In this document: in pieces, positions 10,894-61,658 of the stretch | How the letters are laid out: each line of letters starts with the position of its first letter | Numbering within the stretch: position 1 is the first letter of the stretch | DNA from: Mesostigma viride | Lineage: Eukaryota; Streptophyta; Mesostigmatophyceae; Mesostigmatales; Mesostigmataceae | NCBI GenBank assembly: GCA_009746045.1 | Contig: RPFO01000156.1 | Location: 2,716,452-2,780,451, forward strand | Reading direction: 5' to 3' | DNA: 64,000 nt | Notes under the pieces: model-generated | Seen by the model: only the letters and a program-made list of their open reading frames with translations | Databases searched by the model: none | Told to the model about the DNA's origin: nothing | Translations under genes and position numbers: made by a program

Positions 10894-10977
10894 TATGCTC
10901 GCATGGGTCTTATTGCACCCACAGATTGCCAGATCGTTAGCGTGTCCGTTTAGCGTGTCCGAGTACAGCTGTGGCAT
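10894..10977 (+). mobile_element. ORF1-B 3' UTR, middle part
   Basis: Contains GGGTCTTATTGCACCCACAG, matching 31,055-31,080 in reverse complement. It ends in AGCTGTGGCAT, the left target-site duplication of the next insertion. Confidence 0.6.
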
Positions 10978-11632
10978 TAATTAATTAATTAAAATCATAG
11001 CTCCGTGGGGAGCATATGTAACACATAGCCCTGAGAAAGGGGCATCTATGGGTTTGTAATACAATCAGGGCGACAACCTGCAGGTGTAGGATGTACAACT
11101 ATCACCTGCTCTGGGTGCACTAGGTGCACCTGCACCTCCATGATGGTTCATGCCTCCTAAACAAGCACAGGCACCCAGGGGGGGCTTGAGGAGAGGGCCT
11201 AGAAGGCCTGCATGACATATGGGGTGGAAGGTATGTGGCTAGGCTATAGCTAGGGTACACATGGCCTCTCAGCAGGGAGTAACTCCCTGCATGGGCAAAG
11301 CATGACTCGACATTGCTACGGCTATTGCAAGGGCGGGTGTGGGCCCATCACGTAGGCATACATGGCCACGTCACTAAGCTTTCTAGTCTACACTACTGCT
11401 ATATATTCCCTAGGCTGGGGTGGCTGGGGTGGCTGGGGTTGCAGGGGTCGCCTGCCAGGGCTTGTGGGCGACGTAGATGTCCGCCCCCTTCCAGTAGACC
11501 GGCTTCTGCCCCGCCGTCTGCCGAAGCTGGAGGTAGGTCGGCCATAACTCCCGTCGCCGTTGTTGCTGCGTCAAGGTCAAGTCGTCGTCCAGCGTGTAGG
11601 CGGTCCCCCCAAGCCGCTTGCGACACTTGAGG
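10978..11632 (-). mobile_element. 5'-truncated ORF1-A LINE inserted in the ORF1-B 3' UTR
   Basis: On the minus strand: the C-terminal part of ORF1-A (11,632 to 11,410, ending near the stop), a 3' UTR almost identical to 37,190-37,580, the hairpin (CTCCGTGGGGAG near 11,000) and a TTAA-type tail at 10,978-10,992. The 11-bp duplication AGCTGTGGCAT is at 10,967-10,977 and 11,633-11,643. Only about the last 75 codons of ORF1 remain. Confidence 0.75.
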
Positions 11633-12416
<784 letters not shown>

Positions 12417-18253: not shown

Positions 18254-29372
<11,119 letters not shown>

Positions 29373-32700: not shown

Positions 32701-32930
32701 CGTGTGCTCCACCGGGGTGCGCTGCCGCCGGCCGCCGAGCCGGTCGAGGTGGTACCACATGTCCTTGCCCTGGTTGCGAGCTTGGCAGGCCTTGGCATCT
32801 GCGATGCACTGGGCCGCCTCTGCGTCCTGAGCATGGGCGTAGGCCTCCCCAAGGGCGGCCAGGAGCACCGGTTTCAGCAATGGGTCCCGGTTACGCTTGT
32901 GGAGCATGCATGTACATAGTAAGTGCACTT
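29768..32930 (-). pseudogene. LINE RT-element (ORF2), 5'-truncated, with a nested ORF1-B insertion
   Basis: Reading down the minus strand: pre-RT region (about 32,900-32,110), RT palm with IFVDYIKAFDTV (about 31,990) and HHGVWQGCVLSP (about 31,830), a break at 31,780 by a nested element, then resumption at 30,886 (MRRARARFTALKGFEPG). YADDTTLI is at about 30,770 and TYGAEAWTL at about 30,410. The end of ORF2 is near 29,940, then hairpin (ACTCCGTTGGGAG at 29,795) and TTAAA tail at 29,768-29,786. Several frameshifts make it non-functional here. Confidence 0.8.
30887..31780 (-). mobile_element. 5'-truncated ORF1-B LINE unit nested in an RT element
   Basis: It encodes only the C-terminal part of ORF1-B (31,780-31,300), then about 400 nt of 3' UTR, the GTGCTCCCG-type hairpin near 30,903, and a TTAA tail at 30,887-30,897. 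The host RT frame continues on both sides (FIIVVDHV / MRRARARF), with at most AT duplicated. It shows that ORF1-B moves without an RT ORF. Confidence 0.8.
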
Positions 32931-37167: not shown

Positions 37168-39168
37168 AATTAATTAATTAATTAAAATCATAGCTCCGTG
37201 GGGAGCATATGTAACACATAGCCCTGAGAAAGGGGCATCTATGGGTTTGTAATACAATCAGGGCGACAACCTGCAGGTGTAGGATGTACAACTATCACCT
37301 GCTCTGGGTGCACTAGGTGCACCTGCACCTCCATGATGGTTCATGCCTCCTAAACAAGCACAGGCACCCAGGGGGGGCTTGAGGAGAGGGCCTAGAAGGC
37401 CTGCATGACATATGGGGTGGAAGGTATGTGGCTAGGCTATAGCTAGGGTACACATGGCCTCTCAGCAGGGAGTAACTCCCTGCATGGGCAAAGCATGACT
37501 CGACATTGCTACGGCTATTGCAAGGGCGGGTGTGGGCCCATCACGTAGGCATACATGGCCACGTCACTAAGCTTTCTAGTCTACACTACTGCTATATATT
37601 CCCTAGGCTGGGGTGGCTGGGGTGGCTGGGTTGCAGGGGTCGCCTGCCAGGGCTTGTGGGCGACGTAGATGTCCGCCCCCTTCCAGTAGACCGGCTTCTG
37701 CCCCGCCGTCTGCCGAAGCTGGAGGTAGGTCGGCCATAACTCCCGTCGCCGTTGTTGCTGCGTCAAGGTCAAGTCGTCGTCCAGCGTGTAGGCGGTCCCC
37801 CCAAGCCGCTTGCGACACTTGAGGAACTCCATCTTATCCGCCATGGTGTCGAAGGTGAGGAGCAAGGGGGAGGGGCCAGCCTTACCCCGCGAGCGGGGAA
37901 GGCGGGTCACCCCCCGCGGCTTGCCCTTACCAGTGATAGCCATGGGGACAAGGATTTTGTTCTCAAACGCCAGGGCAAGGGTCTCGGAGGTCTCGTCCTG
38001 CAGCGGGTCGAAGTGCTTGACTATGACGTTAAGGCTGCGCTTGGCGAGCTCGGCCTCCTCGCGGAGGTCCAGCGTCTGCTGCTGAAGCTGGGCGGCGACG
38101 GCGGAGGTGGTGGAGGTGGCGTGCTGCTTCAGCATGTCCGCCCAGGTGGTGATGGGAGGAGCATCGCCGGCAGGGCCAGCAGGGGCTGGCCGAGCGGCGA
38201 TGTCCTTCACCGCCTGGGCAGTGATGCCGGCGGTGTTCTGCAAGCATTCGATGGCTATGGCATTGTCCTGCAGGCGCTTGTCGATGGCGAGGAGCTGGGC
38301 GTTGAGGGCTTCGGTGGTGGTGGAGGTGGCGGCGAGGAGCTTGGAGGTGGCGGTGGTGGTGGAGGAGAGGAGGGGAAGCTCGGCAGCCAGCGTGCCGCCC
38401 ATGGCCGCCACATCTGCGGCCAGGGGTGTCACGTGCTGTGCGATGGCCTTGTTGATGAGGGAGCGAATTTCGGAGGTGGAGGGGGGGGCCCAGATCTCGG
38501 CGACAGAGCGCCCGAGGAGGCAGCAGAGGGCGAGGAGCTGAAGGCGGGGGCGGGAGTAGCGGGACCCGCGATCCGGCTCAAAGAAATCACCACGGGTAGG
38601 CGAAATGATGCGATGTTGGACGTAAAAGTGCTTGCACAGGGCAAGAAGCGAGGTGCGCGTCCCGTAGAACACGGCTTTCATAAACTCGATGGGATCTGCT
38701 TGGCCTTGTGTCCACCAGGCAGCTGATTTGGCGTCAAAGTCGATTTCTTTCCAGCCCGGCTCGTCAGGGGGCGGATCCTCAGGGCGACTGCGTTTAGGCT
38801 CAGGCGATGCCGAGGGCGAGGCAAGTCCGTGAGGGGGCTGGGCAACCACCAGTGCACGACTAGTGTCACCGTTGCCTTCCGGGCTTGAGGGCGAATCTGC
38901 TGCCGAAGCTGCAGACGGACTTTCATTGCCGAGCGCAGCCGCCAGGCTGCGTTGCGGCAAGGGGCGTTTGCTCGTCATATATTGCGTTATAGCTTCGGAA
39001 AATTATATCAGCATGTGCGTCTAAGAAAGACGAAGCGATTGTGATATTCACAGCTGAATTCGGGGCTCAAACGTAAAAGTTATGAGCTCCGACAGCCATG
39101 GCTACCTCGTGGCTCGTGGCTCGCTTCGTGGCGTGGAAGGGGGAATCGGAAGGGGATGGATGGATGGA
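37168..39168 (-). mobile_element. Complete ORF1-only LINE unit (2,001 bp) with 8-bp target-site duplication
   Basis: TCCTCATT is duplicated at 37,160-37,167 and 39,169-39,176. The flanks rejoin as GGTACAGGTCCTCATTGCG, which matches the uninterrupted LINE-2 ORF at about 33,567-33,585 (reverse complement). On the minus strand: 5' UTR with CGAGCCA repeats, intact 465-codon ORF1, a 3' UTR of about 390 nt, hairpin (GCTCCGTGGGGAGC near 37,191), and an ATTA/TTAA tail at 37,168-37,187. No reverse transcriptase or endonuclease is present in the unit. Confidence 0.85.
37581..38978 (-). CDS. Intact LINE ORF1p-like protein (465 aa)
   Basis: The N-terminus is Ala/Ser/Pro-rich with a basic KRSRPE patch near residue 63-68. 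A helical, Ala/Thr-rich middle (about 170-310) with heptad-like spacing could form a coiled coil. An RRM-like block follows from about 315 (NVIVKHF), with TRLPRSRGK and PLLLTFDTMADKMEFL. The C-terminal block (about 395-445) has YTLDDDLTLTQQQRRRELWP and PVYWKGADIYV. This order is that of L1 ORF1 proteins, which coat element RNA and act as chaperone; the function here is inference. It is the only undamaged LINE protein in the window. Confidence 0.75.
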   Translation of the reverse strand: MTSKRPLPQRSLAAALGNESPSAASAADSPSSPEGNGDTSRALVVAQPPHGLASPSASPEPKRSRPEDPPPDEPGWKEIDFDAKSAAWWTQGQADPIEFMKAVFYGTRTSLLALCKHFYVQHRIISPTRGDFFEPDRGSRYSRPRLQLLALCCLLGRSVAEIWAPPSTSEIRSLINKAIAQHVTPLAADVAAMGGTLAAELPLLSSTTTATSKLLAATSTTTEALNAQLLAIDKRLQDNAIAIECLQNTAGITAQAVKDIAARPAPAGPAGDAPPITTWADMLKQHATSTTSAVAAQLQQQTLDLREEAELAKRSLNVIVKHFDPLQDETSETLALAFENKILVPMAITGKGKPRGVTRLPRSRGKAGPSPLLLTFDTMADKMEFLKCRKRLGGTAYTLDDDLTLTQQQRRRELWPTYLQLRQTAGQKPVYWKGADIYVAHKPWQATPATQPPQPPQPREYIAVV

Positions 39169-39176
39169 TCCTCATT

Positions 39177-40137
39177 GCGGACTGATTAATTAATTAAATA
39201 ATTAAATAATTAGTTAATTAATTAGGAACATAACTCCGTTGGGAGTATCTGTAGCACATAGCCTCGAGCCACGAGCCACGAGCCACGAGCCACGAGCCAC
39301 GAGCCACGAGCCACGAGCCACGAGCCACGAGCCACGAGGTAGCCATGGCTGACGGCGGAGCTCATAACTTTCACGCCTCCTCCTCTTGGGGGGAGGTGGC
39401 TTGCCCACAGGGTAGGGCGTGCAGTGAGCGGCTTGACAATCTTCTGCTACCGCGTCTTGTTCTGCATGGCAGTCCAAAGAAGGGAGAGAGAGTGGATGCG
39501 GTATTGAAACTGGGCTGGGACCAGTAGGTCATCCAGCAACATCTGGACGTAGTTCGTGACGTACATGTTTCCCTACCCTTTTGGGAATGCCCTTGGGGCC
39601 AGGCCAGGTCACTGAGGTCAGAATGTGCCGCCCTGGCTGGCCAAGCCGCTGGGGGCCTGCCAGACCAAGGGCGGTGTACGTCGACCTGGCTGGTGCGAGC
39701 AAGGTGTCCTACAAATGCTATCCTACGCTGTCTAATCTCGTCCGAAATGCGAGGCATGCCCTGATACAAAGACTCTAAACTATGCCGGACCTATGCGTGG
39801 AAACCCCTACATTCAGGGCCTGACGGAGCATCCTGGTTACCGTGCCGTTGAGCCTGGCTGCCAGTGTGGGTGTGAGTGTCCACGCCTCGGCGCCATACGT
39901 GAGCACCGTGAGGACGAGGACCTTGAAGACCATGCGCTTGCGGTGCTCGCCCAGGCCCTTGGAGCGCCAGTAGGTGTTAAGCGAACGTAGCCTAGCCCAG
40001 GCCAGGCGGATGCGGGTGTCCACATCGCCGGCGGTGTCAGGGAGCCAGCTCCCTAACAGTTTGAAGCGATCTCGGAACGGGGCCGTCGTCCCGTCGAGCA
40101 TGCAGGCGCGGCAGCGGCGGTGTACTGGAGGCCCCAC
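39177..40137 (-). pseudogene. LINE RT-element 3' part, rearranged
   Basis: ORF2 C-terminus: FRDRFKLLGSWLPDTAGDVD near 40,080 and VLTVLTYGAEAWTL near 39,900, then frameshifted down to about 39,380. Its 3' UTR is replaced by an ORF1-unit 5'-UTR piece in inverted orientation (39,264-39,378) before the hairpin (ACTCCGTTGGGAG at 39,232) and a TTAA/AATTA tail (39,184-39,222). Confidence 0.65.
39264..39340. repeat. (ACGAGCC)n heptamer array
   Basis: About 11 copies. Two to three copies of the same heptamer open the 5' UTR of each ORF1-only unit (near 5,530 and 39,105). Confidence 0.9.
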
Positions 40138-40500
40138 TATACTTTTCGTCCGAGGGTGGTAAAAAGCATCCGAGGCGTAAATTACGAGGTGGTAAGTTAT
40201 ACTCCGCTTTTACTCTTACCGTTTGCATACGAGTTCGGATCTTTCTCGTAAGCTACGAGTTAGATCCGAGGTAAGATCCGACGTCGTAATTTACGAGGTA
40301 GTAATTTACGAGGTAGTAATTTACGAGGTAGTAATTTACGACACAACACCGCGAACCCGCCAAATTTTGACATAAATTATTGTCCGGATTTCGTCCGAGA
40401 TCTAGATTTTTCCCGCGCCGCGAGAGACGAAAACGACGAAAACACCCATGGCGGTCGAGCATCAGCTAGCGTTCTGAAACCTGCGTCATTTCAGCCGCCT
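40138..40500. repeat. TTACGAGGTAGTAAT repeats and flanking unassigned DNA
   Basis: A 15-bp direct repeat (about four copies, 40,290-40,340) preceded by diverged pieces (40,175-40,290). The same motif occurs at 43,808-43,834 and 53,268-53,372. No gene. Confidence 0.7.
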
Positions 40501-42800: not shown

Positions 42801-44006
42801 GGAGACATGGGATATGCCAATACCATATCACGTGAGCATACGTGGATGCCAGGTGACATGTGCCAGCGGCTGGGTGTCACTTCACCTTGATGTTCGCTCG
42901 GCATGTTCTTGACATGTATTACACGCATATATCACGCATGGTGCGTGTTGGTAGCAACCAAATGGCTGTGTTCTAGTGACGTGGCATGTATTGTCCACCT
43001 TTCCTTCCCATTTTGCAATGTGCCAAGTAGTTTAAAGGTATGGTGTTATGGGGTATATATGGACGTGCACTGCGCATCACAGCAATGTGGCATACTGGCA
43101 ATGTCTACCTTACATCATACATTCTGCTAGCTATGGTCACCACTCAGGCATTCACATGCCCCAAGGTTTTGCACGCTGTTTGTACTAGTCATTCTTGAGT
43201 TGCCCGCAAAGAATTAACATGATGTGCCCTAGCTTGGGGAGTGTCTTGGTGGTTAGTGTTTTTAAAATTGTGATAAAAAAGAGCCAAAATGGTGACAAAT
43301 GCAGGCAAATGTCACCATTTTGGGCTCCGTATGATCTGAATTTTTGCACATGAATTGTGGGGACCCTGTGTCAGGTGTTGGCATGATGACAATAGGTTTG
43401 GGTGTCATTCTGACATTATTTGGATTTAATATTAATTAAAAATTGCCATTTACGACAAATGCTAGCACTATTTTGCTAGCATTTGTCACTAAATAGGGCT
43501 CCGAATGCCCTAGAACTTTGTACAAGGTCAGAACAACTCGTATTCGTCACCCTTGCAAAGTTACAGCATAATCTGATATCAATTATTGTTGCTATGCAAG
43601 TGCAAGTGGTTTAGGTGGCCAGTTTTGGCCTTGGATCTGGAGTTAACTTAAGCAGGGAATACCACGTAAACTTAACATTTTGACTCAACTACTCCACCAC
43701 TAGCCAGACACATCCCGGGGAGTCGTGGGATCCAATCCTAGGTCAATCCAACCATAAACTTGCCATGGGCCAGAATTTATGTAAAAAAAAGGCCATTTCA
43801 AGGTGTTGTGGAGGTAGTAATGTACGAGGTAGTAATGTCGCGTCTGCGTACCACAATCTCCGGCGCTACCATGGCGGCTGGCCATGCTCAGCTTTGGTAA
43901 AACCCAAATGAGCTGAGCTGACGTGCCTGCCTTAACTGCATGCCCGGTGGGGTGGGCGAGGACCTGTCCCATGATTCCCCCCCTCGCTGGCTCTCATCAT
44001 GGCTCC
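42801..44006. other. Gene-free DNA beyond the 3' side of the Ty3/gypsy element
   Basis: A purine tract (GCGAGGGGGGGAA on the minus strand, about 43,974-43,986) follows the PHD ORF and could be the polypurine tract. I could not find the LTR expected after it. A TACGAGGTAGTAATG pair occurs at 43,808-43,834. No gene otherwise. Confidence 0.4.
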
Positions 44007-44339
44007 TCACATGGCCAGCGACCGTGCCAACACCACAGCAGCTAAGGAAATGGTGACGCTACTGGTTGCGAAGCGGGCAGCGACACAAACTGGGCAAAAC
44101 CACTGGCCCGCTGGCACGGTGGTGAGCGCTGGCTGCAAGCAGTGCATGTGCCACCCACAATTACAGTGATCACACAGCAACATGGTATCCCCCTGGTCTA
44201 CGCGATGGCAAACCTGACACTGTGCGTCCTTGACCCGCCTGGCCGTGTGCGGGGCGAGGTCAGGCAATAAGTTGGGCAACGAACACGGACTGAGGTTGCT
44301 TACGTTATCGGTGGTGCGACTGCCGTCGACGCCCTCCAA
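44007..44339 (-). CDS. PHD finger at the C-terminus of the retrotransposon polyprotein
   Basis: The 110-aa frame overlaps the end of the pol frame by 40 nt in another phase. It starts with an integrase C-terminal end (LEGVDGSRTTDNVSNLSPCS), showing it is the natural continuation of pol after a 1-nt shift. It then has a textbook C4HC3 PHD finger: Cys41, 44, 56, 59, His64, Cys67, 82, 85, with Trp80 before the last pair. PHD fingers bind histone H3 tails; here it could steer integration, analogous to integrase chromodomains. That role is inference. Confidence 0.8.
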   Translation of the reverse strand: MEGVDGSRTTDNVSNLSPCSLPNLLPDLAPHTARRVKDAQCQVCHRVDQGDTMLLCDHCNCGWHMHCLQPALTTVPAGQWFCPVCVAARFATSSVTISLAAVVLARSLAM

Positions 44340-47300
44340 ATGGCGACCCCAGATGGCTTGATGGCGACGATCCGCAAGATGGTCGGCCCCGCAGTCACGT
44401 CAAGAGTGTCGGTCAGCTGCGTGCGGAGAAAGACGAACTGCCCCGGACGAAAATGCAGCTGACGGGCCATGTAAGCGCCCCCCCGGCGCTGAGCGTAGCG
44501 CAGGGTATCTCGGTGCTGGGCGATGAACAAGTTGTTCATGGCGATGGGCATAACCTTGCGGAAAGTAGCCGCCCGTGCGGTCACCTCAGCCAGAAACTGA
44601 CTGGCGTTGTCAAACGCCATAGGGGTGGGGTGTGCACTCTGCGCCTCCGTGGGGAGCAAGGGTGCGCGCCCAAACAACAGGAAATACGGGGAGAAACAGG
44701 CGAGCGACTCCTGGGGTGACATTCGGTAACCCATGGCTATCCACGCCAGTTCACGATCCCACATAGTGAATGATGCTGACTGCAGGCTCCACTTGCGCAA
44801 AGCCTGCTTGACAGTCTGCACCAATCTCTCAGCCAAACCATTGGCCTGAGGATGCTCGCGAGAAGTGCGACGGTGATCAATGAGACATGCATCCAACAAT
44901 TCCTGAAATTCCCCACGAAACTCCCCGCCCTGGTCGGTGACCACCTCCGCGGGGGCGCCAAACCTGGCGATGATGTCGGCGAAGTGCTTGGCGGTGGTGG
45001 CGGCCTGCTTGTCAGCAATGGGGATGAGCTCGACCCACTTGCTAAAACTTTCGACACACACCATGACATACTTGTGGCCATCTGCACTTTCATCAAAGGG
45101 CCCACACAGGTCTACGTGCCAGCGGTAGAAGAGCCCTCTGATGGGTAGGCTCATCAATTCTTTCGCATCGTGGTCCACATTGAACCTGGCCTTCACCCGG
45201 GCACACTGCGCGCAGCTAGCGACGACCTGCGCGACTGTGGCACGCATGCCGTTCCACCAATAAGAGGCGCGCACTAGCGCCAAAGTGCGGTTACCACCCA
45301 GGTGGCCATACCGCTCATGGGCTTGCTGGACGATGGCGACCCGCTTGTGAGGCGGCGGCACCACCACTTTGCGCTTGCCGATCATTTTGTGGAGGACCCC
45401 GGCATCCCACGAGTAGGTGACCGCCCTATGTTGCACCCTATTCAACTCAGCGTCACGCTGGGCTGAGGACCAATCAACAGGGGTTGGGGTGAGAGCTATC
45501 CCTTGGACCTGCTCCAACACACGCCCATCGAGCCACACATCACCCATGTTGCATTCCACTGTGAGATGGCCAACCAACACCACCTGGAGTGCTAGGTATC
45601 GTGCCAAGGTATTGTCAATGTCAAAGGACGGAGAATTACCTTCCTCCAACGCGAGGAGGCCAGCGGCAGGGGTGAAGGGAGAAGGGTGAACTGCATTGCA
45701 GCTTGCCGCAAAGTCTGCGACTGTATACTCGACTGCGCGCCAGTCTGCCTCGGCGTCGGCGTCAGCGAAGCCTGCAGCATTAACAAAAACCACAGACCCA
45801 GGCGAGCTCTCGGCCCCTAGGGCCCGCGCACCAGTGTTGTCAACAGTGGTTGGTAGAGCATACCTGGACAGGACGTCCGCGTTGGAGTGATCCACACCTG
45901 GCCGATGGACGATTGTCAGGTGGTACTCCTGAATGATCATTGCCCACCGGGCCAGCTTACCCGTGAGTTTGTCGCTGGTCATCAACCACAATAAGGGCTG
46001 GTGATCAGTGACAAGTGTGAACACCCGCCCAAAGAGATATGGCCTGAAGTGCTTGATGGCCCACACAACGGCTAACGCTTCCCCCTCGTAGGAAGAGTAC
46101 CGACTCTCGGCAGAGTTGTTACTCCGACTAGCGTACGCGATAACATGCTCGCGCCCCGCATCGTCCTTTTGTGCTAGCACAGCCCCTAGGCCTACCTTGG
46201 ACCAATCGGTGTAAAGAATGAAGGGCAGAGCATAGTCGGGGGCGCGTAGGATAGGAGCGGCAGTCAGTTCCTGTTTGATGGTATCGATGGCTCGCTGCTG
46301 AGCCGGACCCCACGCCCAGACATTGCCCTTCTTCAACAACTCAGTCAGGGGTTTGACTTTGGTGCTGAAATTCTGAATATATCCTCGATAATAGCCAGCT
46401 AGCCCGAGATACGCGCGCACCCCCGAGATGTCGATGGGCACTGCGGCGTTGCTGATGGCTTCCACTTTGGCTGCCTCAGGGGTCCGGCCACCTGGTACAA
46501 TCTGATGGCCAAGAAACCCTATGGTCTGTTGGGCGAACTTGCACTTTTCAGGGTGCAGCCGCAGGTTGGCCTTATCTAGGGCGATCCGAACCTGATCGAG
46601 GTGAGCTAAGTGCTGGTCAAACGTCTCGCTAAAGACAATGACATCGTCTATGTAGCAGGCTGCAAATGGCAACCCTGCCAGCACCTGGTCCATGGCACGT
46701 TGGAACACCGCACTAGCGTTGCGATGTCCGAATGGCATGCGAACCCACTCGTACAGACGGGTCCCACCCCAAAAGGCCAGCTTGCGCTGATCTGCCTCTA
46801 CGACCTTGATCTGATGGAAGCCGCTACGCAAATCTAGCGACGACACATACTTGACCTGGGGAGATATTTTATCCAAAACATCATCGACCCGAGGCATGGG
46901 GTACCTATCAACAGGAGTGTGCGCGTTCAGCTGACGCAGGTCAGTGGCCATGCGCATACCTGTCCACTCGCCTGTGATGGTATCCTTCTTGGGTGCGACC
47001 ACCGTGGCAGCTGCATAACTGGAGGATGAAGCGCGGATGATCCCAGCTGCCTCTAGCTCTCGACAGTTAGCATCTACGAATTCCAGCTCAGCCAAGCTCA
47101 GCCTATGCTGCCGCCTGAATAAGGGCTGATCCGTATCTAGTGGGACCCCCATGCAGCCCCCGTTGTAGCACCCTAGTTCTTCACTGCTGAAAGCGAATAC
47201 TGAGCGTGCAGAATGCAACCAGTGCTCCATAGCCTTGCGTTGCGTGGCGGTGAGGTGCTCACCTATGGCCCATATGTGAGAGGCAGCAGGATCTGCGACT

Positions 47301-48076
47301 GCGGCACTCCTACTGTCGAGACAAGGCCCCCGGACAGCGGCATCGTGGAAAAGGGAAAATGCGGCTACACCGGGTGTGACGCTCACCTGCTGAATGGCAC
47401 GGACTGCGCGACCGACCGATTGCTGCAGGGTGGGCGCTCCAGCGAACACCGTGCTGGACAACAAGGACGTCATGAGGATAACGCTCCATAGTTGAAGCAG
47501 CCGCGATCTCCATGGCGACCCAGTGCCGCCGGACGCTGTTGGCCGGACACCAGCCGCGTGGGCACTGACAGGCGGTGGCGGTGTGGGGATATCTCCCCCA
47601 CCCTGGCGCACTTGCATTGCGGCCCGCAGAACATACCCAACCTGGAAGGCTGACATGGCTTGCCCAACGAGAGACCACCTAGTGGCCTCTAAAACCCCCT
47701 CAGCGGCGGACGCCCCCACATGGAACCCCATGCTCACCTCCCGAAACTCAGCGGGCGGCTGCACCAACAAACCCGTACCGGTGTCCCATACCAAACCCTT
47801 GCCCCGGTCCCTGTAGGCCGATGACCCCTGGTAACTAACCAAGGTGGGAAGAGCGCACATAGGCTTACCTACGTGATTGACGGGTGCGTAAGGGTGCCGA
47901 TCGGCGACATCTACCGCTGCGTGACCAAATGTGGTGGCAGCGCCACCTCCGCGGGCATGCCGTCGTGCTGTCGTGTGATCGCATCTACCACTGCCTGGAT
48001 GGTGGTGGTGAGTGCAAGGTTGGTCCAGAATGCGCGGTACCTGTGGGTGAGCCCGCCCAATCCTGCATTGTCGCAC
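44300..48076 (-). CDS. Retrotransposon pol: methyltransferase C-terminus, RT, RNase H, integrase (1,258 codons)
   Basis: Residues about 60-150 match the C-terminal end of a C5-methyltransferase (ALPTLVSYQGSSAYRDRGKG, then EFREVSMGF and LVGQAM). RT spans about 335-560: LDLRSGFHQI at 414-423, catalytic YIDD at 475-478, FLGH at 521-524. RNase H spans about 618-740 with Asp624 and Asp734. Integrase zinc region: His920, His925, Cys955, Cys958; catalytic Asp989, Asp1048, Glu1083. The frame ends early at 44,300 because of a shift before the PHD finger. The first Met lies inside the broken methyltransferase, so it is not a true start; pol is expected to be made as a gag-pol fusion. Confidence 0.9.
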   Translation of the reverse strand: MRQCRIGRAHPQVPRILDQPCTHHHHPGSGRCDHTTARRHARGGGAATTFGHAAVDVADRHPYAPVNHVGKPMCALPTLVSYQGSSAYRDRGKGLVWDTGTGLLVQPPAEFREVSMGFHVGASAAEGVLEATRWSLVGQAMSAFQVGYVLRAAMQVRQGGGDIPTPPPPVSAHAAGVRPTASGGTGSPWRSRLLQLWSVILMTSLLSSTVFAGAPTLQQSVGRAVRAIQQVSVTPGVAAFSLFHDAAVRGPCLDSRSAAVADPAASHIWAIGEHLTATQRKAMEHWLHSARSVFAFSSEELGCYNGGCMGVPLDTDQPLFRRQHRLSLAELEFVDANCRELEAAGIIRASSSSYAAATVVAPKKDTITGEWTGMRMATDLRQLNAHTPVDRYPMPRVDDVLDKISPQVKYVSSLDLRSGFHQIKVVEADQRKLAFWGGTRLYEWVRMPFGHRNASAVFQRAMDQVLAGLPFAACYIDDVIVFSETFDQHLAHLDQVRIALDKANLRLHPEKCKFAQQTIGFLGHQIVPGGRTPEAAKVEAISNAAVPIDISGVRAYLGLAGYYRGYIQNFSTKVKPLTELLKKGNVWAWGPAQQRAIDTIKQELTAAPILRAPDYALPFILYTDWSKVGLGAVLAQKDDAGREHVIAYASRSNNSAESRYSSYEGEALAVVWAIKHFRPYLFGRVFTLVTDHQPLLWLMTSDKLTGKLARWAMIIQEYHLTIVHRPGVDHSNADVLSRYALPTTVDNTGARALGAESSPGSVVFVNAAGFADADAEADWRAVEYTVADFAASCNAVHPSPFTPAAGLLALEEGNSPSFDIDNTLARYLALQVVLVGHLTVECNMGDVWLDGRVLEQVQGIALTPTPVDWSSAQRDAELNRVQHRAVTYSWDAGVLHKMIGKRKVVVPPPHKRVAIVQQAHERYGHLGGNRTLALVRASYWWNGMRATVAQVVASCAQCARVKARFNVDHDAKELMSLPIRGLFYRWHVDLCGPFDESADGHKYVMVCVESFSKWVELIPIADKQAATTAKHFADIIARFGAPAEVVTDQGGEFRGEFQELLDACLIDHRRTSREHPQANGLAERLVQTVKQALRKWSLQSASFTMWDRELAWIAMGYRMSPQESLACFSPYFLLFGRAPLLPTEAQSAHPTPMAFDNASQFLAEVTARAATFRKVMPIAMNNLFIAQHRDTLRYAQRRGGAYMARQLHFRPGQFVFLRTQLTDTLDVTAGPTILRIVAIKPSGVAIWRASTAVAPPIT

Positions 48077-48630
48077 GTGACTGGGCCCCTAAGATGTCCA
48101 CGATCTGGGCCCAGTCCTTCCTCACTACCTCGTGAGGGCTGTCGTCGGCCACCACGTTCTCAAAAAGATACGCTAGTGGCTGGTCCTGCAGCTGCTGCAA
48201 GAGTCCAACGACTCGAAGCAGATCCCAAAACAACCCGCTCCTAGGATCCGCAAGCCCGCGTCCTACGCCGGCCTGACTCAACCCTTGACATTCCCAGCCC
48301 GCGAGGACGAGGTCTATCCTCTTGTGCCGCCTCAAAAGGCCTCGCACATGAACCTCCCCAATGCACGGATATCCTGAGGGCACTCCCCAAACGGATCTGT
48401 CCACGCAGACGGAGGAACTGAGATGGATACAGGGCAGACAGCTGGGCACAGTGATGCCTATACACTGCCCGAGCGGTAGGAGACGGCTCTACGGCGATCA
48501 ACGTGTGGCACGTACCGCCTGCAGCGAGAAAGCCAGCCAGCCCCCCTCCCATCCCAGCAAACAATTCTAGCAATACAACCCCTCGGACAAGACCCGCGAC
48601 TCTGCCACAACATCGGCACAGAAGTTACCT
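47620..48630 (-). pseudogene. C5-cytosine DNA methyltransferase domain between protease and RT, frameshifted
   Basis: Motif I LLELFAGMGGGLAGFLAAGG at about 48,575-48,515. A PQDIRALG block is near 48,385. Motif IV DLVLAGWECQGLSQAG is near 48,318-48,270, with Glu replacing the Pro of PCQ; the catalytic Cys is kept. Next are GLADPRSGLFWDL, then motif VI FENV at about 48,165. Motif VIII-like THRYRAFWTNLA is near 48,045. The C-terminal part continues in the pol frame to about 47,620. The pieces lie in all three minus frames, so at least four shifts break it. The family methylates cytosine C5 in DNA. Retrotransposon-borne methyltransferases are known from charophytes and dinoflagellates. Confidence 0.8.
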
Positions 48631-50041
48631 TCGTTGTCGCGACAGCCACTTGGGACTGCGATTGCCGCGGGAGATGAGAGAGTTGTTGCTGCCGCACCGC
48701 GTTGGTGACGTGCTGACGCAAAAGGGCCTGCCGCGCTTGCGGCTGCTGTCGCGCCGCCCACGTGCTGTGCAATGAGGCCCGTCCCACCAGCGCTGTTGGG
48801 ATGCACGGCCGATGCTTATCACGCACAGCCCCCCCAGCTGCCGTGACCTCCCCCATCCGTACCTCCACCACCGCGTCGTGCGAGCCAGCCTCGACCCGGT
48901 TGACCGTCGAGACACGCACTGCCCCAGTGTCCGAGCTGTAGCAGCTCACCGGGATGCTTGCTTGGCGCATGGCGTCACCGTCTCTGTCAACGATGTACAC
49001 CGCGCGGCCTTCCCACATGCGTACCTCGAGCCGCATGGGAAACATGACCTCCATGCCGACCAGCACGTCATACGATGACTGCTCGGTCACAAGGGCATTC
49101 ACAGGGATGCAGGCCATGTCGGATGGCCTGAGCGGGTTGAGGATGACCATTACCTGGACCGCAGTCATGGCAAAGGGTTTAGCGGCAGGGCCCTGCCAGC
49201 CCGCCACGGACACATGACTGTCCCGCAGCCCGCCATTCTCCCTGGTTAGGTTGAGCAACTGGGCCAGCCGAGCACTGATAACGAGTGGCTGGGCCCCGCT
49301 GTCCAGTTTCACGACCAATTCATGGTCAGTACTGTAGACCACGTTGCTCAGGGGCTCCCCGTGCCCCTGCGCCTGAAACGCCATTGCTGGCTCGCCATCC
49401 GGATATGAGGTGACAGTGGGTGCCCTAGGCACTACGCACGCCCGCTGCGCGTTGTCCAAGACACCATGAGCGACATGACCCACGATTACCGAAGCCGATG
49501 CAGGGCGATGCCCGACAAATGTGGCTGTCTCAGCGTTGTGCAACCTACGGGCGTCCATTGTGTCAGCGTACCGCTGTACCTCTGACGCATGCGACCCGAG
49601 CACCTCCACGGCCCGCTGACCGAACCACTCGACCACTTGCCGGGGAGTGTATGCAGGCGTGTCCACGACCGATGGCATAGGGTATAATGGCAACAACCTG
49701 CGCCGCTGCTCTGCCCCAGCAGGATTGTCGTGTTCCAGGGTGGAGCCGGTCCGAGCGGGAGCCATGCGAAAGGACTGAGGCAACTGCCCCACAGTCTCAC
49801 TTGGCTGCCCCACCTGAAACGACGGTGGTGCACGTGCTTGCTTCCCGCGCGCGCCAACTGCGTGGATGTCCAACGCCATCACGTCGGCTGGCCGCCAGAA
49901 GTCCTCGTCCCTGTATTGAACCTGCGATCCCCCATCCTCCCTTTCACGCCCCCCGCCTCGCCCGTCGGCTGAATGATGACCACCCCCGCGTCCACCTTCT
50001 TGTCCTCCACGTCCGCAAAGTGCACCCCCGGCGCTGGGCAC
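48458..50041 (-). CDS. Retrotransposon aspartic protease region (527 codons)
   Basis: Retropepsin motif VVKLDSGAQPLVI with Asp247 in DSGA, and DVLVGMEVMFPM (325-336) as the downstream strand typical of element proteases. A long N-terminal linker (1-235) of unknown role precedes it. The frame overlaps gag by 163 nt in the -1 phase. G-GGG-GGC at 49,954-49,948, read in the gag frame, is a candidate slippery heptamer. The last roughly 50 residues are probably out of frame, since the methyltransferase continues in another phase from about 48,628. Confidence 0.75.
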   Translation of the reverse strand: MPSAGGALCGRGGQEGGRGGGHHSADGRGGGREREDGGSQVQYRDEDFWRPADVMALDIHAVGARGKQARAPPSFQVGQPSETVGQLPQSFRMAPARTGSTLEHDNPAGAEQRRRLLPLYPMPSVVDTPAYTPRQVVEWFGQRAVEVLGSHASEVQRYADTMDARRLHNAETATFVGHRPASASVIVGHVAHGVLDNAQRACVVPRAPTVTSYPDGEPAMAFQAQGHGEPLSNVVYSTDHELVVKLDSGAQPLVISARLAQLLNLTRENGGLRDSHVSVAGWQGPAAKPFAMTAVQVMVILNPLRPSDMACIPVNALVTEQSSYDVLVGMEVMFPMRLEVRMWEGRAVYIVDRDGDAMRQASIPVSCYSSDTGAVRVSTVNRVEAGSHDAVVEVRMGEVTAAGGAVRDKHRPCIPTALVGRASLHSTWAARQQPQARQALLRQHVTNAVRQQQLSHLPRQSQSQVAVATTKVTSVPMLWQSRGSCPRGCIARIVCWDGRGAGWLSRCRRYVPHVDRRRAVSYRSGSV

Positions 50042-51750
50042 TGCCCCGCCAGATGGGTGCGGACCGTTGCCGGGTGTGACTTCTTACACGCCTTGGGACA
50101 ATCACGTTTGATGTGCCCATCCTGACCGCACAGGAAGCAGCCCGATTTGCGCGCATCCGTCCTACCCGTCTGTGAGGACGTGCCCCCCCCAGCTCGCGTC
50201 GGCGGAGCGGCAGCGTCCTTGTTGCCGCCAGCGGCGTTACCCTGGGTTGCATCATGCGATGAGGCGTTGCGAGACCCCCCTTGGTTCCTGCTAGCACCGT
50301 GGCCGCCTTGCGGGCGCGCTTGTCTTGTGGCAGACGACTCACCCGACTTGGCCTTGGTCAGCGCGTCGACCTTGGCCTGCAGCTCGGCCACCACCGTGCT
50401 TACCGAGATCCGGCCTTGCGCGTGTCGTCGCATCATGGCCCTGACCTCAATGCACAGTGACCGCAATCGCCACGGCTGGCCGTTGGGCGGCGTGGGCAGC
50501 TCCATCTCCTTGGAGCCTAGCGCTTGCAGCCATTTCTGACACGCCAGCTTTTCGGACCAGTCCTCCACTTCGCCGGCGAACTCCATGAGGCGCTCGTAAG
50601 ATTGCTCCGGGGTTTCACCCTCGGCTATCTTGAAACTGCGCCACTCACGCTCTGCCTTGATGGTCTCCACCGGGTATTCCTGGCGAAGGAGGCCCCACAG
50701 TTCCTCGGCAGGGTCGACACCATACATGATGTTGTCATAGTCGGGCTGGCCACGCCCGTCGAAGCCGAACCACACGTCCGTGTGACGCGTGTACAGCGAG
50801 ACCTCTCTCCACTGCTCCACCAGCCTAGCCACTCGCCTCAGCGTAAGGCCGTGAAAGAAGAAATGCATGTTGTTCATCACAAACTCATGCATTACAGCGC
50901 CTTGCGTAGTCATGTATTGCAGATCAATCCATGACTTGTACGCGTTGTAGGCCTGCGCCAGCGTGGCCAGATTGCCGGTTGTGGAGAACTTCTCGCGCAT
51001 GTCCACCCGTGGTAGGGTGGGCATCTTCGCGCCTTCAGGTATGAGGCGCACCCTTTGCGGGTACTGCACCCCATCGGCATCCTCCGGCGGTCGCTGAGCT
51101 GCGCGTCCCTGCGCCAGCGTGCTTGGGCGTGCTGCCTCCCGTACTCGGAAAGCCAGCGGCGTGGTTATGTCCTCCATGGGCGGAATGCGCCCGATTGGCA
51201 CACTTGACCACCGTGCAGTCGACCCGCCGGTCAGCGCCCCACCGCCTCGCCCAAACGGAATTGAGACCCCGCCTGGCAGCATGCGTCCTGGTGCACCCCT
51301 GCGTGGGTCCATCGCGCGCGCCAGCCCTGCCCCGTTCTCCTCGTGCAATCCGTCTCGCGCTTGATCGAAAGGCAGGCGCCTGGGCGCCAGCGTATACTCG
51401 CCCCGTGGCTGACCATCCGCCTCACCAAGCAAGTCGTGTTGGGTTAGCGACCCAGCCAAAACCCCCGGTTCCATCGGAGCCCTTCCCGCCGCATTACCTG
51501 AGGTTGGCGGCTGGTCCCGCTCCCTCGGCTCCGCGGCAACACCACTTGGGCCCGGCATCGATGCCTGCCCGTCCCATGGTGTGGACTGCAGATGACGACC
51601 CTCTACGGCCACCAATCTGTCGGTCACTTCCCGCATCTGCAGCGCCAGTTGCTGCTGCAACTGTTGCGACTGTTGCTGCATCTGCGCTTGCATCTGCGCG
51701 AACAGCGCCACCATACTCAGCGGCGCTTCTTGGTCGCGACTCTCACCCAC
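49879..51750 (-). CDS. Retrotransposon Gag (up to 623 codons)
   Basis: A Gln-rich coiled-coil start (AQMQAQMQQQSQQLQQQLAL), a Pro/Arg-rich linker, a capsid-like helical middle (about 240-430) with a WFGF/DYDNIMYG region, and one CCHC zinc knuckle: Cys538, Cys541, His546, Cys551. The frame opens with GTG at 51,750; the first in-frame ATG is codon 13 (51,714). An upstream ATG at about 51,826 opens MADANRADANTSAPGSNGGF in another phase and stops after about 36 codons, so the true N-terminus may be frameshifted. Confidence 0.85.
   Translation of the reverse strand: MGESRDQEAPLSMVALFAQMQAQMQQQSQQLQQQLALQMREVTDRLVAVEGRHLQSTPWDGQASMPGPSGVAAEPRERDQPPTSGNAAGRAPMEPGVLAGSLTQHDLLGEADGQPRGEYTLAPRRLPFDQARDGLHEENGAGLARAMDPRRGAPGRMLPGGVSIPFGRGGGALTGGSTARWSSVPIGRIPPMEDITTPLAFRVREAARPSTLAQGRAAQRPPEDADGVQYPQRVRLIPEGAKMPTLPRVDMREKFSTTGNLATLAQAYNAYKSWIDLQYMTTQGAVMHEFVMNNMHFFFHGLTLRRVARLVEQWREVSLYTRHTDVWFGFDGRGQPDYDNIMYGVDPAEELWGLLRQEYPVETIKAEREWRSFKIAEGETPEQSYERLMEFAGEVEDWSEKLACQKWLQALGSKEMELPTPPNGQPWRLRSLCIEVRAMMRRHAQGRISVSTVVAELQAKVDALTKAKSGESSATRQARPQGGHGASRNQGGSRNASSHDATQGNAAGGNKDAAAPPTRAGGGTSSQTGRTDARKSGCFLCGQDGHIKRDCPKACKKSHPATVRTHLAGQCPAPGVHFADVEDKKVDAGVVIIQPTGEAGGVKGRMGDRRFNTGTRTSGGQPT
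49948..49954 (-). promoter_or_regulatory. Candidate -1 ribosomal frameshift heptamer (GGGGGGC)
   Basis: It lies in the gag-protease overlap, split as G-GGG-GGC in the gag frame. Slipping back one base gives the protease frame. The X-XXY-YYZ pattern is the known form; G-runs are less usual. No downstream pseudoknot was evaluated. Confidence 0.4.
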
Positions 51751-51829
51751 TGCGGGTACGGCGGGAGGAATCCGCCATTCGACCCCGGAGCGGACGTGTT
51801 GGCATCTGCTCTATTTGCATCCGCCATGG

Positions 51830-53130: not shown

Positions 53131-53267
53131 CTTATGCTGCAAGTGCTAGTGTCCCCCCCCCGGTCACTAGCCTTTGTCGAAAATGCGCAGAAAACAAATT
53201 CCTTGCGCACGTCACCGGTATTGTGCATAGTGGGTGCCCGGATGACATAGCTCGCGTCCGTGACAGT

Positions 53268-53372
53268 AATGTACGAGGTAGTAATGTACGAGGTAGTAAT
53301 TTACGAGGTAGTAAGGTACGAGGTAGTAATTTGCGAGGTAGTAATTTACGAGTTGGTAATTTACGATCCCGG
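53268..53372. repeat. TTACGAGGTAGTAAT direct repeats
   Basis: About seven 15-bp units with a variable base in the TAATTTACG part. Same motif at 40.29-40.34 kb and 43.81-43.83 kb. Confidence 0.85.
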
Positions 53373-57534: not shown

Positions 57535-60500
57535 CAGTGTTTTTTTTAAGGTTTTCGCTACTAGTGGCGCTAGGCCACTTGTGGCGTTTCGAACTATGAA
57601 AACTTCAGTTTACTCGGCCAATGTGTGGCTTTAAGCCAATTAAAATTGGGCTTGGCACGGCCACGTGTGGCGGGCTGGCTTTTTGGTGCAGCAAATGACC
57701 CTGCCGGCAGTGGGGTCAGCGCGGCGCGGCGCCGTACTGGCTGTACACAAGGCGGGCGAGCGTCTCCGTCTCAGGCATCGGCGCCGGGCGCCGGCCGGGC
57801 CGCCGGCTGCCCGGCCTGCTGGCGGGCAGCCCCATTCTCATCATACTTCAATTGCACTTGTGTCTTCCTACTTAAATGAAAAGTATAAAAACCTATGAAG
57901 GTGTAGTGTTTACTAACGCGTTAAATAATGAGACTAAGGATGCATTATAGTTACCTAATTAGTTTCAGTCTACTATGAAGTGAGGTTACTCAGTCAAAAG
58001 TCAACTGAAAGTTAGTCAGCTCATAAGCTTCAGTAAGCGGCCGTACTAAATTTATGAAATCACTACGTCACGCGAGAATAAATTCAAAAAAAAGCACTGT
58101 GTGCTTTGAACTTACTTAATTTGTTGTATTGGCGCAGTATTACTTCTCACGACCGACTTAGTAATGTTTGGCTTCCTAGTTTCCGTGATTCCGTCATGAA
58201 CGAATAATAAGGATTATGGCTCATTCGCAATTGCTCATTGGTGGCCTCATCATTTTATTTAAAGTTCATTAATAATTACGCCCCTCTAAAAGCGAAGCCA
58301 TGACTAGCTTGCACACTTGACTACATGCCGATGGCGGGGACAATGTAAGCAATTACGTTGTCGTCAGAAGGCCGGGCAACAAACTTGAAAACGCTAGCTG
58401 CCCAAAATTTGAGATTCCGCGGAAAGCACAGAAAATAAGAAAACTTAGTAGCTAGCAGCAAGGAATCATATAAGCAATTATGTATTTAAGTAAGAACACT
58501 GCCGGTTGCGCGGCGGCCCTTCTCCGCAGACCACACTGCATATGCCGCCTGGATCGGCATGTCTTCGTATGAAGAGCTGCATGCAAAGATGCGGACCGCC
58601 ACGTTCAGATGGCGCTCGAGAAGGCGGTTGCGAATATCGCTCTTAATGAAATTCATGTGGCTGAACCTCCGCTCATTCTCCACGCTGGTAAGAGGGAGGA
58701 GCAGCATCAACTCTGCCAGCTGCAGATACGCCCCCACAAACTCGTGCATGAGCGGGTTGGTCAACAAAACCTTCCACAACGCCCTTGCGGACGTGTACTC
58801 CTGGCTGTTGCTCTTCATCATGAGCATAAAGGAGTCGAGCTGGTCATCCAGGAGGGACGGGGAAATCAGTGGGCCCACCTTCTTCCCATTCACCATGGTG
58901 ACCCCCACAGCAAACTTGCGCTTGAGCACCTGAACTTGTTTCTGCACCTCGGCCACGTCGCGCTCCTTCTCAGTCCACCAGCCTGGCTGCAAAATGGACA
59001 TCGCGGAGAGCAGACCGTTTGGTGGGAATCGGATATCGAAGTCGTCCAGCACCACCTTGGCCGCAGCGGTAGCCTGCTCCTGCGCAGCAATTACGCGGAG
59101 TCTGAACTCCTCCTCCGTGACACTTGCCACTGAAACGTAGCGAGCCCGAGAACCCGAGGCCTCGTGCACCGTTTGACATGTTACCGGGTGTTCCATTTCC
59201 TGGCAGTTGCGGAAAACCTCGCCGCGGTCGGTGAGAAAGGGTGACGTGTCGGCATCCAAGTCTATAAACCCCTTCCAGAGGGTCCCAGTGAACACCTTGG
59301 GCCCTTCCACATACTCATCACGGATTGTTGTCTTGCAGTCCTCGATCGCATGGGCAAGGGTGTCGAGCTGCAGGTCCTGCTGCTGGCACTGCTTGACCAA
59401 GAAATTCATGGCATCCAGCATGCGCGCGAACACGACCACCCCGAGCTGGGTGTCAATGTCCAGCATGTTGGCTAGCAAGTCCTGTGCTGCTGCCATTTGC
59501 TCCACTTCCTTGTGTTGGTAGGTGGCCAAGCACATGGCGATCGCAGGATACTCAATGCGGAACGTGTTGAGGCACCCCTGCACGCTAAGCCAGCGTGTGT
59601 CGGACACGCGCTGCAGCTTCCGGCCACCCGTGCCCAGCATCCCCTGCCACATCTTCAGTTGCTCTGACTTCATGGCTGAGTGCGCCACCCAGTTGTGTGC
59701 TGACTTGAGGATTGACTCCACCCGCGCAAACAAGGAGTTCCCCTTGAGCTCGTTCGCTATCAGGCTGAGCTTGTGCGGCGCGCAGTGCATGGGCACGAGG
59801 AAGGGTGCATTGCTCATCAAGAGCTTCTTCCCGACACCCTTCCGCTGCCCCATCATCACCGATGCCCCATCTGACCCGAAGCCAACCAGCTTCACCACGA
59901 GCTGATCGTCCGTGATTCCGAGCATGCCTCGCATTACTATGCACAGCTCGTTGTGCAGGGAGAGGGCGTCCACCGCAGTCACCTTTTTTAGCGTGACAAA
60001 CTCCTGCTGCTTTATTCCATCCTCCACAAAAGCCACCTCCACCGACATGAATTCTACGTTATCATTGGCCTTGGACTCATCGACGGTGACCGCGACATAC
60101 CTAGCCGCGGCGACCCTTGCCTTAAGGTCAGCAAGCAACACGGCATCCAACGCCTCCGCCATCTCCCAACCTGAGCCGTCAGTCCAATGGTGGGAGGGGA
60201 GCGCGTCCCTCATCTCCTCGTATTCGCAAAGGAGCGTTGGCAGCGACTCATAATCAGTCATAGGCTTACCCTTCGCCAGGGTGTACGCCATCGCCTTGAA
60301 CTGCTTGAGCTTAAGTCGGTCGGACTTGCTCAGCTGACCAGGGGGGGGGCAAACTCGCCCATGACCGTCTGCCTCTGCCGGCTCTGCGTGCTCCTCTCCT
60401 CCCCTGAATACACCCGCAGGCACTCGCTCTTCTCCTTCGCAATGGCGGCCACGTGAGAGTCAGCCACAACGTGTGTCTTGAAAGTGTCGATCTTGAAAAC

Positions 60501-61658
60501 CTTGGTCCCCCTACCCAGCCCGATGGTGACCTTGGCATCACGGCAAGGGCCGCAGTATGCTTCGTCCTTCTCTTCGTCATAGCGCAACCATGGGAAACGC
60601 AGCCCCCATTCGGGTTTCCACTTCCTATTGGCATCCGCGCCCTTCCAATCCCTCTTGGCAGGTGGCGCTACGAAAATGGAAAGCAGCACCAAGGAAATGA
60701 GGGGCGCATCACATCCATTCGAAGGCACATCGGACCCCACTTCCCCGTCCATGACCTTAATGCTGACCTTGATGTAGTTCGCGTCTGCCCCTATCACCTC
60801 GGGATGTTCGGGCGCCCCCTCACTCTCTACCCGCCGAGCAGCAGCCCGCGTCTCCTTCGACCTAAGCCTTTTCGCCTCCTCGGGAGCGATCTCTACCGTC
60901 GCCTTGGTTTTCCCAACGACAATGGAGGCTCCATTCGGACCTGGAAAGATTGGTTTGCATCGCATTCCGGCTGGGAGGGCCAAAGGCTTCCGGCCAAGCC
61001 CGGTGCCATAAAACACACTATTTCTTCTCTCTCCTCCCCTCACTACCTGCGGCGGCCCAGGTGGCCTAAACGGCCCAGCGTCTGCCATGGATTTTTCCTA
61101 CTTGGTAAATTAACAACAACGATTACTAGTGCCGAAAGTCGAAACACATTAGTCAATGCAGTATGGCTGGCGAGTGACTTAATACTGAGGCGCCAGGCCG
61201 CCACTCGCCAGCTGTTATATGAGCCAGCTGTCGTGAAAATGCAGTTAATGAAATGCACACAAGCTGCAGTCTGCACAGTGCACTCTCCGTGCTCTGGTCT
61301 CGGGCAGCGGGCCACTTGCCACTTGGCACTTGGCCGCCGGCCGGGCTCTACGTACTGTACATGCACTATGCAGTCAGTCAGTCATAGTAGTACTCATAGT
61401 AGTAGTCTAGTACTAGGGAGGCTTGTGGCGGAACGCCGACCGGAAGACCGGCTGACACCGCCAATTGTGGCGTAACCTGTACTAGAGTAAACTTCAGGCA
61501 CGGCCACCCTGTGGCGAAACGAAACTACGAAGTAGAACAGCACGGCCAAATTGTGGCTTCTTGGGAGCCCTGTCAAAGTGGGTGGCAACGCCACATTTTG
61601 CCAAAAAAAGTGCCACACCGCCACATTTGGCGGTGTATCGCCACTAAAAAAAACACTG
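57535..61658 (-). mobile_element. hAT DNA transposon (4,124 bp) with perfect 8-bp target duplication
   Basis: TCGACGGG is present at 57,527-57,534 and 61,659-61,666. Terminal inverted repeats are a perfect 14 bp, CAGTG followed by eight T and A. Subterminal GGCCA...TGTGGC motifs recur at both ends (about 57,565-57,670 and 61,425-61,635), like hAT transposase binding sites. It carries one transposase on the minus strand. It is inserted at the foot of a palindromic repeat. Confidence 0.92.
58486..61088 (-). pseudogene. hAT transposase, single frameshift in a G9 run
   Basis: First frame 61,088-60,330 (252 aa): Arg/Pro-rich start and a TTF/BED-like zinc finger (Cys179, Cys182, His206, His212). 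Second frame from about 60,350 to 58,486: RNase H-like core with VTVDES (Asp115 of the 645-aa frame), GFGSDGASVM (Asp185), and CAPHKLSLIANEL. The C-terminal hAT dimerisation region is LLPLTSVENERRFSHMNFIK and following. The frames overlap at 60,330-60,423 and meet at nine G (60,341-60,349, plus strand), a likely 1-nt indel. Without it the protein would be about 870 aa, typical for the superfamily. Confidence 0.85.

Follow-up and report, generated by a model that had tools for sequence, protein, structure and literature searches.

The window (the whole 64-kb stretch of DNA that was analysed) carries a retrotransposon on its minus strand, in which gag, protease (PR), reverse transcriptase (RT), RNase H and integrase (IN) follow each other in Ty3/Gypsy order. 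The features are listed in Table 1. The nearest PDB sequences to the RT-RNase H part are those of Ty3, with E values of 2.8e-62 and 4.1e-62, the next being at 4.6e-41. A methyltransferase domain (DNMT) lies between the protease and the RT, and a PHD finger follows the integrase in a frame different from that of Pol.

Table 1. Features of the element and its surroundings in the window
Feature	Coordinates	Strand	Basis
gag ORF, CCHC zinc knuckle at about 50142-50092	49879..51810	-	zf-CCHC E 7.2e-6
ORF with retropepsin-like protease at about 49324-49046	48458..50083	-	Asp_protease_2 E 3.8e-4 (21.5 bits, below the curated cut-off of 24.3)
C5-cytosine methyltransferase domain, putatively Dnmt3-type, split over several frames	47612..48579	-	Pfam and relatives
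Motif IV ECQ, including the catalytic Cys	48285..48293	-	Motif reading and family alignment
Pol ORF: methyltransferase end, RT, RNase H, integrase	44303..48088	-	ORF list and Pfam
RT	about 46993-46499	-	Pfam E 8.9e-28
RNase H	46237-45923	-	Pfam E 2.7e-38
Integrase H2C2	45358-45185	-	Pfam E 3.3e-17
Integrase core	45127-44849	-	Pfam E 9.7e-12
ORF with PHD finger at about 44219-44085	44010..44399	-	PHD E 4.8e-10; frame differs from Pol
15-nt minisatellite unit, 3' side of element	43811..43838	.	Repeat search
15-nt minisatellite, 5' side of element	53265..53366	.	Repeat search

The minisatellite has the unit AGTAATTTACGAGGT and occurs at three sites, namely 40177-40341 and the two in Table 1. The latter two flank the element, and may mark its insertion site. 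Repeat searches found no LTR pair around the element within the window, and the copy may be truncated. No DIRS-like repeats were found around it. There are no tRNAs in the window, and no Rfam families at gathering score.

Several other features were observed in the same stretch. An ORF at 24602-25405 (+) matches FAD_binding_2 (E = 2.6e-40) and is probably an exon of a host flavoprotein, possibly succinate dehydrogenase. Of two adjoining ORFs at 58492-61097 (-), one matches a C17orf113-type zinc finger (E = 1.4e-7) and the other matches DUF4371 weakly (E = 0.068); together they resemble a transposase that is domesticated or hAT-like. A non-LTR-type reverse transcriptase element is present in several copies (81-94% alike) at 12525-14746, 29772-32902 and 39373-40135, with a match to RVT_1 (E = 6.5e-9) in 32103-31306. 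The 661-base repeat pair at 10976-11636 and 37169-37828 (99.7% identity) is a very recent duplication or mobile element, and a fragment of a WW-domain protein is found at the window edge (1-604, +; E = 5.8e-9, two stretches).

The motifs of the methyltransferase occur in the correct order, spread over three frames of the minus strand: LELFAGMGG (motif I, 48570-48544), GWECQ (motif IV), FENV (motif VI, 48164-48153), HRYRAFWTNL (motif VIII, 48045-48016) and, in the C-terminal stretch, LVGQAM (47671-47654). A preliminary description of this DNA had placed a methyltransferase between the protease and RT of a Ty3/gypsy element, with motifs I, IV, VI, VIII and the C-terminal region in order and the last part in frame with the RT. 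Pfam and the relatives agree with the placement, the motif positions were verified, and the Pol ORF contains both the end of the methyltransferase and the RT. An HMM search, which that description had proposed, gave a significant match to PF00145 for the motif IV/VI ORF by itself (E = 2.1e-8, 34.4 bits, cut-off 22). The motif I ORF by itself matched weakly (E = 0.071, 13 bits, below the cut-off), and the C-terminal stretch by itself had no Pfam match at E = 1. When the frame pieces were joined by X, relatives were matched at E = 9.0e-83 and 3.6e-115 in a database of 5.8 billion proteins, which excludes chance for the methyltransferase reading. The GC contents at the three codon positions of the methyltransferase pieces (849 nt) are 0.668/0.473/0.671, near those of gag (0.678/0.520/0.722).

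These matches come from two protein searches made with the joined pieces, in which no base was restored, and in each of which the best approximately 7,995 word-sharing candidates were scored. They returned 27 proteins, consisting of 24 relatives and three other methyltransferases (P0009, P0010 and P0028). With the exception of the short P0011 (1.3e-4), the relatives have E values between 1e-115 and 1e-19, as against 6e-6 to 1e-6 or weaker for the three others. Four relatives are from Mesostigma viride (P0002, P0003, P0011, P0012), three from Haematococcus lacustris (P0023, P0026, P0027), and there are 17 others. None of the 27 is near-identical to the window pieces, and the nearest named ones are those of M. 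viride, with 60-68% identity for P0002, P0003 and P0012, and 78% over 36 residues for P0011. Mesostigma, or an alga close to it, is therefore the probable host. A search of the protein database with residues 45-190 of the Pol ORF had given 1587 candidates, none at E = 0.01; this is a matter of sensitivity, given that the joined pieces later recovered the relatives.

The domain belongs to a family of elements, as 20 of the 24 relatives contain further domains of an element, or a region with homology to part of the window element. In P0003 and P0012 it comes after a stretch homologous to the protease ORF of the window, and in P0013 after a Pfam protease; P0012 represents a cluster of 4 sequences, and P0013 one of 11. 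All three end ahead of any RT, and the RT side of the domain is visible only in the window and in P0002, whose tail after the domain resembles the DNMT-RT linker of the window (57% over 158 residues, including the domain end). Between the window and P0003 the methyltransferase has 60.5% identity and the protease ORF 37.5% over 256 residues, so that the methyltransferase is the better conserved of the two. Twelve relatives have an IN match, of which three end inside it, and all nine others have a PHD region directly after it. These nine regions are homologous to that of the window (37-48% identity), and therefore the PHD ORF of the window belongs to the element.

The domain occupies a different position in many of the relatives. 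In 12 proteins (P0006, P0008, P0014, P0015, P0017, P0019-P0023, P0025 and P0027) it comes after RNase H, and in P0005, P0016, P0018 and P0024, which have no RT, it is found ahead of IN. In P0016 a G-patch domain (residues 404-438, E = 3.1e-7) lies between methyltransferase and integrase. For P0002, P0004, P0007, P0011 and P0026 one or both flanks of the domain are not visible. Six relatives (P0014, P0015, P0017, P0019, P0020 and P0022) have RT, RNase H, the domain and IN in a single predicted protein of 1505-1791 residues. The chlorophyte H. lacustris is among the sources of Gypsy polyproteins in which the domain separates RNase H from IN and the same PHD finger is present.

The profile and the predicted fold of the relatives' domain point to the Dnmt3 class. 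The profile gave E = 8.6e-18 for DNMT3A, 4.2e-7 for HhaI, 4.4e-7 for DRM, 4.5e-5 for HaeIII and 0.0022 for Dnmt2, and the predicted fold is closer to Dnmt3 than to other classes. The window piece alone does not separate HaeIII (E = 9e-4) from DNMT3A (E = 0.0086). The preliminary description had noted a change of PCQ to ECQ in motif IV, with the cysteine kept. The cysteine is indeed kept, but Glu in place of the usual Pro is the norm of the family, being present in 16 of the 22 rows having this stretch, and is not a change in the window copy; ECQ as a sign of decay is thus ruled out. In P0021 and P0022 the motif is ECS and ECV respectively, so that Gln is lost and the catalytic Cys kept, and the domain of P0026 and P0027 is incomplete. 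Throughout the family, motifs I, IV (Cys), VI and VIII are conserved.

We consider it probable, without being certain, that the window element is one copy of a green-algal Ty3/Gypsy family with a Dnmt3-type methyltransferase and a PHD finger, whose enzyme methylates the element's own cDNA or insertion site. This reading starts from what is observed, namely the domains and their order, the relatives in which the domain can be read within a single protein, the Dnmt3 class of the relatives and the conservation of the catalytic motifs, and from there self-methylation is proposed. In a working copy the domain would be made within the polyprotein, and either be freed by the protease or stay in the particle. 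It would then methylate cytosines, probably at CG, in the new cDNA or in the DNA around the insertion. The PHD finger would tether the integrase to a histone mark, such that the element would both find and make its chromatin setting, and a copy arriving methylated would be quiet and less harmful, and would therefore be tolerated. Host cytosine methylation normally silences transposons, and an element equipped with a Dnmt3 and a PHD reader of its own would reverse this arrangement. Such elements could also supply de novo methyltransferases to algal genomes, and P0014, P0020 and other relatives readable as a single protein allow direct tests of self-methylation. Several points stand against it: the Glu in motif IV, the loss of Gln in P0021 and P0022, the broken state of the window copy, the failure to find an LTR pair, the fact that the window piece alone does not tell HaeIII from DNMT3A, the lack of yeast activity of the K. 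nitens element domain (inconclusive according to its authors; PMC5890265), and the CpG content. The CpG o/e is 0.77 in the domain, 0.77-0.81 in the flanks and 0.93 in gag/PR, and no CpG depletion as a footprint of methylation is seen in the window copy, so that self-methylation in this copy has no support from its CpG content.

Judged from its reading frames, the window copy as sequenced could not produce the enzyme. Compared with P0012 over the aligned 50.75-47.79 kb there are seven frame changes. The first is close to the gag-PR junction, the next two immediately precede the domain, and the remaining four fall within it; the PHD ORF requires one further. It is quite possible, although we lean slightly the other way, that these are assembly errors and that the copy is whole. 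All seven are one base short, and this one-way direction speaks for errors of some kind. Six of them are clustered in 779 nt, at about 48.7-47.9 kb (p = 0.029, with a uniform null chosen post hoc). The end branch of the window pieces in the DNMT tree is 0.038, compared with 0.36 for P0012; their amino acids are thus little altered, and the breaks are either recent or sequence errors. However, the sites have runs of 2-4 and no long homopolymers, which leaves homopolymer errors unsupported as the source at the seven sites, the indels between other repeats in the window vary in size, and the LTRs were not found. A separate suggestion is that the domain is an inherited Dnmt3 fold that no longer methylates, but serves in DNA binding or particle structure, or has an altered chemistry. 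The family-wide Glu, the lost Gln and the partial domains described above would fit, as would the finding that KnitGypsy-Dnmt3 from Klebsormidium nitens had no activity in yeast, a result that its authors call inconclusive (PMC5890265). We regard this as rather unlikely, given that a mere scaffold would have no need of motifs I, IV (Cys), VI and VIII. An enzyme that acts mainly on the host, marking its DNA or disturbing its silencing and leaving its own cDNA alone, appears unlikely. In M. viride 5mC occurs, mainly at CG, and there are orthologues of CMT/DMT genes that could maintain such marks (PMC6947507), and host-wide effects in Symbiodinium are discussed by de Mendoza et al. (PMC5890265), but K. 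nitens has such elements and a plant-like methylome (PMC5890265).

The origin of the domain has also to be considered. The best solved-structure match of the motif IV/VI piece is the HaeIII methylase (E = 9e-4), as might be expected if a bacterial or host methyltransferase gene had landed by chance in one element copy. We think this extremely improbable, given the strength of the matches to element relatives and the shared position of the domain behind the protease in P0003, P0012 and P0013, which rules out a chance insertion into a single copy. The preliminary description had named such an insertion as a way in which it could be wrong; 24 of the 27 returned proteins are close relatives, with element features in 20 of them. 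A phage or bacterial source for the domain of the window copy was rejected, as the motif IV/VI piece has no phage match. A pattern search of IMG/VR gave 18 matching stretches and no relatives, and a search of it with the family profile gave 15 loci with best-segment identities of 26-48%. The PR-DNMT-RT and RNase H-DNMT-IN arrangements could be two separate captures of related Dnmt3 genes, which is possible but not what we favor. The DNMT tree has 22 rows, three of them an outgroup that is small, long-branched and without Dnmt3 from green-algal hosts; P0002, P0003, P0007, P0026 and P0027 were left out as incomplete, and P0011 is absent. In this tree the window pairs with P0012 (99/97) and then with P0013 (97/94), also behind a protease, while the 16 others form one clade (99/97), in which no row is known to carry the domain after a protease. 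The RT-RNase H tree (9 rows, rooted on the long branch of Ty3) likewise puts the window outside the others (89/95), and 24 of the 27 matches are one family, all of which argues against two captures. The identities in IN and DNMT are correlated (r = 0.61 over 11 taxa, with 10 of 5000 permutations as high). On the other side, the window is relatively more distant in DNMT (37.5% identity to the others, which share 50.5% with one another) than in IN (44.4%, compared with 47.8%), and the unrooted IN tree has a split (96/98) by which midpoint rooting would place the window within the others.

The simplest reading is one capture followed by one move within Pol, with two captures being possible. A more far-reaching version can be offered as a speculation that is doubtful as a whole: an old Gypsy lineage spread across streptophyte and chlorophyte algae would bear a writer (Dnmt3) as well as a reader (PHD) of chromatin marks, the writer having shifted once within Pol, from the PR-RT interval to the one separating RNase H and IN, and each new copy would silence its own reader-chosen site.

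It has been known since 2018 that a Dnmt3 domain can occur in a streptophyte Gypsy Pol, namely in KnitGypsy-Dnmt3 of K. nitens (de Mendoza et al. 2018; PMC5890265). This is the closest known case, and shares with the window element a Dnmt3-type domain in the Gypsy Pol of a streptophyte alga. The preliminary description knew of no such element in this kind of green alga, but mentioned a report from charophytes; the nearest named host, M. viride, is a streptophyte, so that the host group overlaps with that charophyte report. The KnitGypsy-Dnmt3 repeats are reported as DIRS-like, and no repeats were recovered around the window element; the text consulted describes no PHD finger (PMC5890265), whereas the window element has one. 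No K. nitens protein is among the 27 returned. The SymbioDIRS-Dnmt3 and SymbioLINE-Dnmt elements of Symbiodinium are also retrotransposons bearing a C5 methyltransferase, Dnmt3-type in the DIRS version, whose domains methylate CG in yeast, but they are DIRS and LINE elements and not Ty3/Gypsy (PMC5890265).

The presence of some DNMT3s in retrotransposons, previously reported for streptophytes and dinoflagellates, is noted again in a 2025 survey, whose main text does not mention Mesostigma or Haematococcus (PMC12344493). A clause in a 2019 review refers, giving no details there, to DAM-/DCM-encoding Ty3/Gypsy and DIRS elements in green algae, charophytes and others (PMC6338049). In the literature searched, which did not include subscription papers or preprints, a methyltransferase-bearing Gypsy element is not described for Mesostigma, for Haematococcus or for any other chlorophyte, nor are the PR-RT position of the domain and its pairing with a PHD finger, and an earlier description is possible. 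Such elements may have been overlooked, since the 2018 survey counted genes holding the Pfam DNA_methylase domain (PMC5890265), and 9 of the 21 family proteins scanned here fall short of the PF00145 cut-off. Within the searches made, the PR-RT position, the PHD pairing, the chlorophyte members and the two positions of one domain family are new.

To judge by the relatives that can be read in other algae and environmental samples, enzyme-bearing elements seem to form a wider family than the one described green-algal case. The Gypsy polyproteins P0014-P0027 share with the window element a homologous methyltransferase, RT, IN and PHD, and differ in having the domain between RNase H and IN where both flanks are visible, compared with between PR and RT in the window. 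Chromodomain-bearing Gypsy elements also have a chromatin reader behind the integrase; in the window element a PHD finger takes the place of the chromodomain, and a methyltransferase is present in addition.
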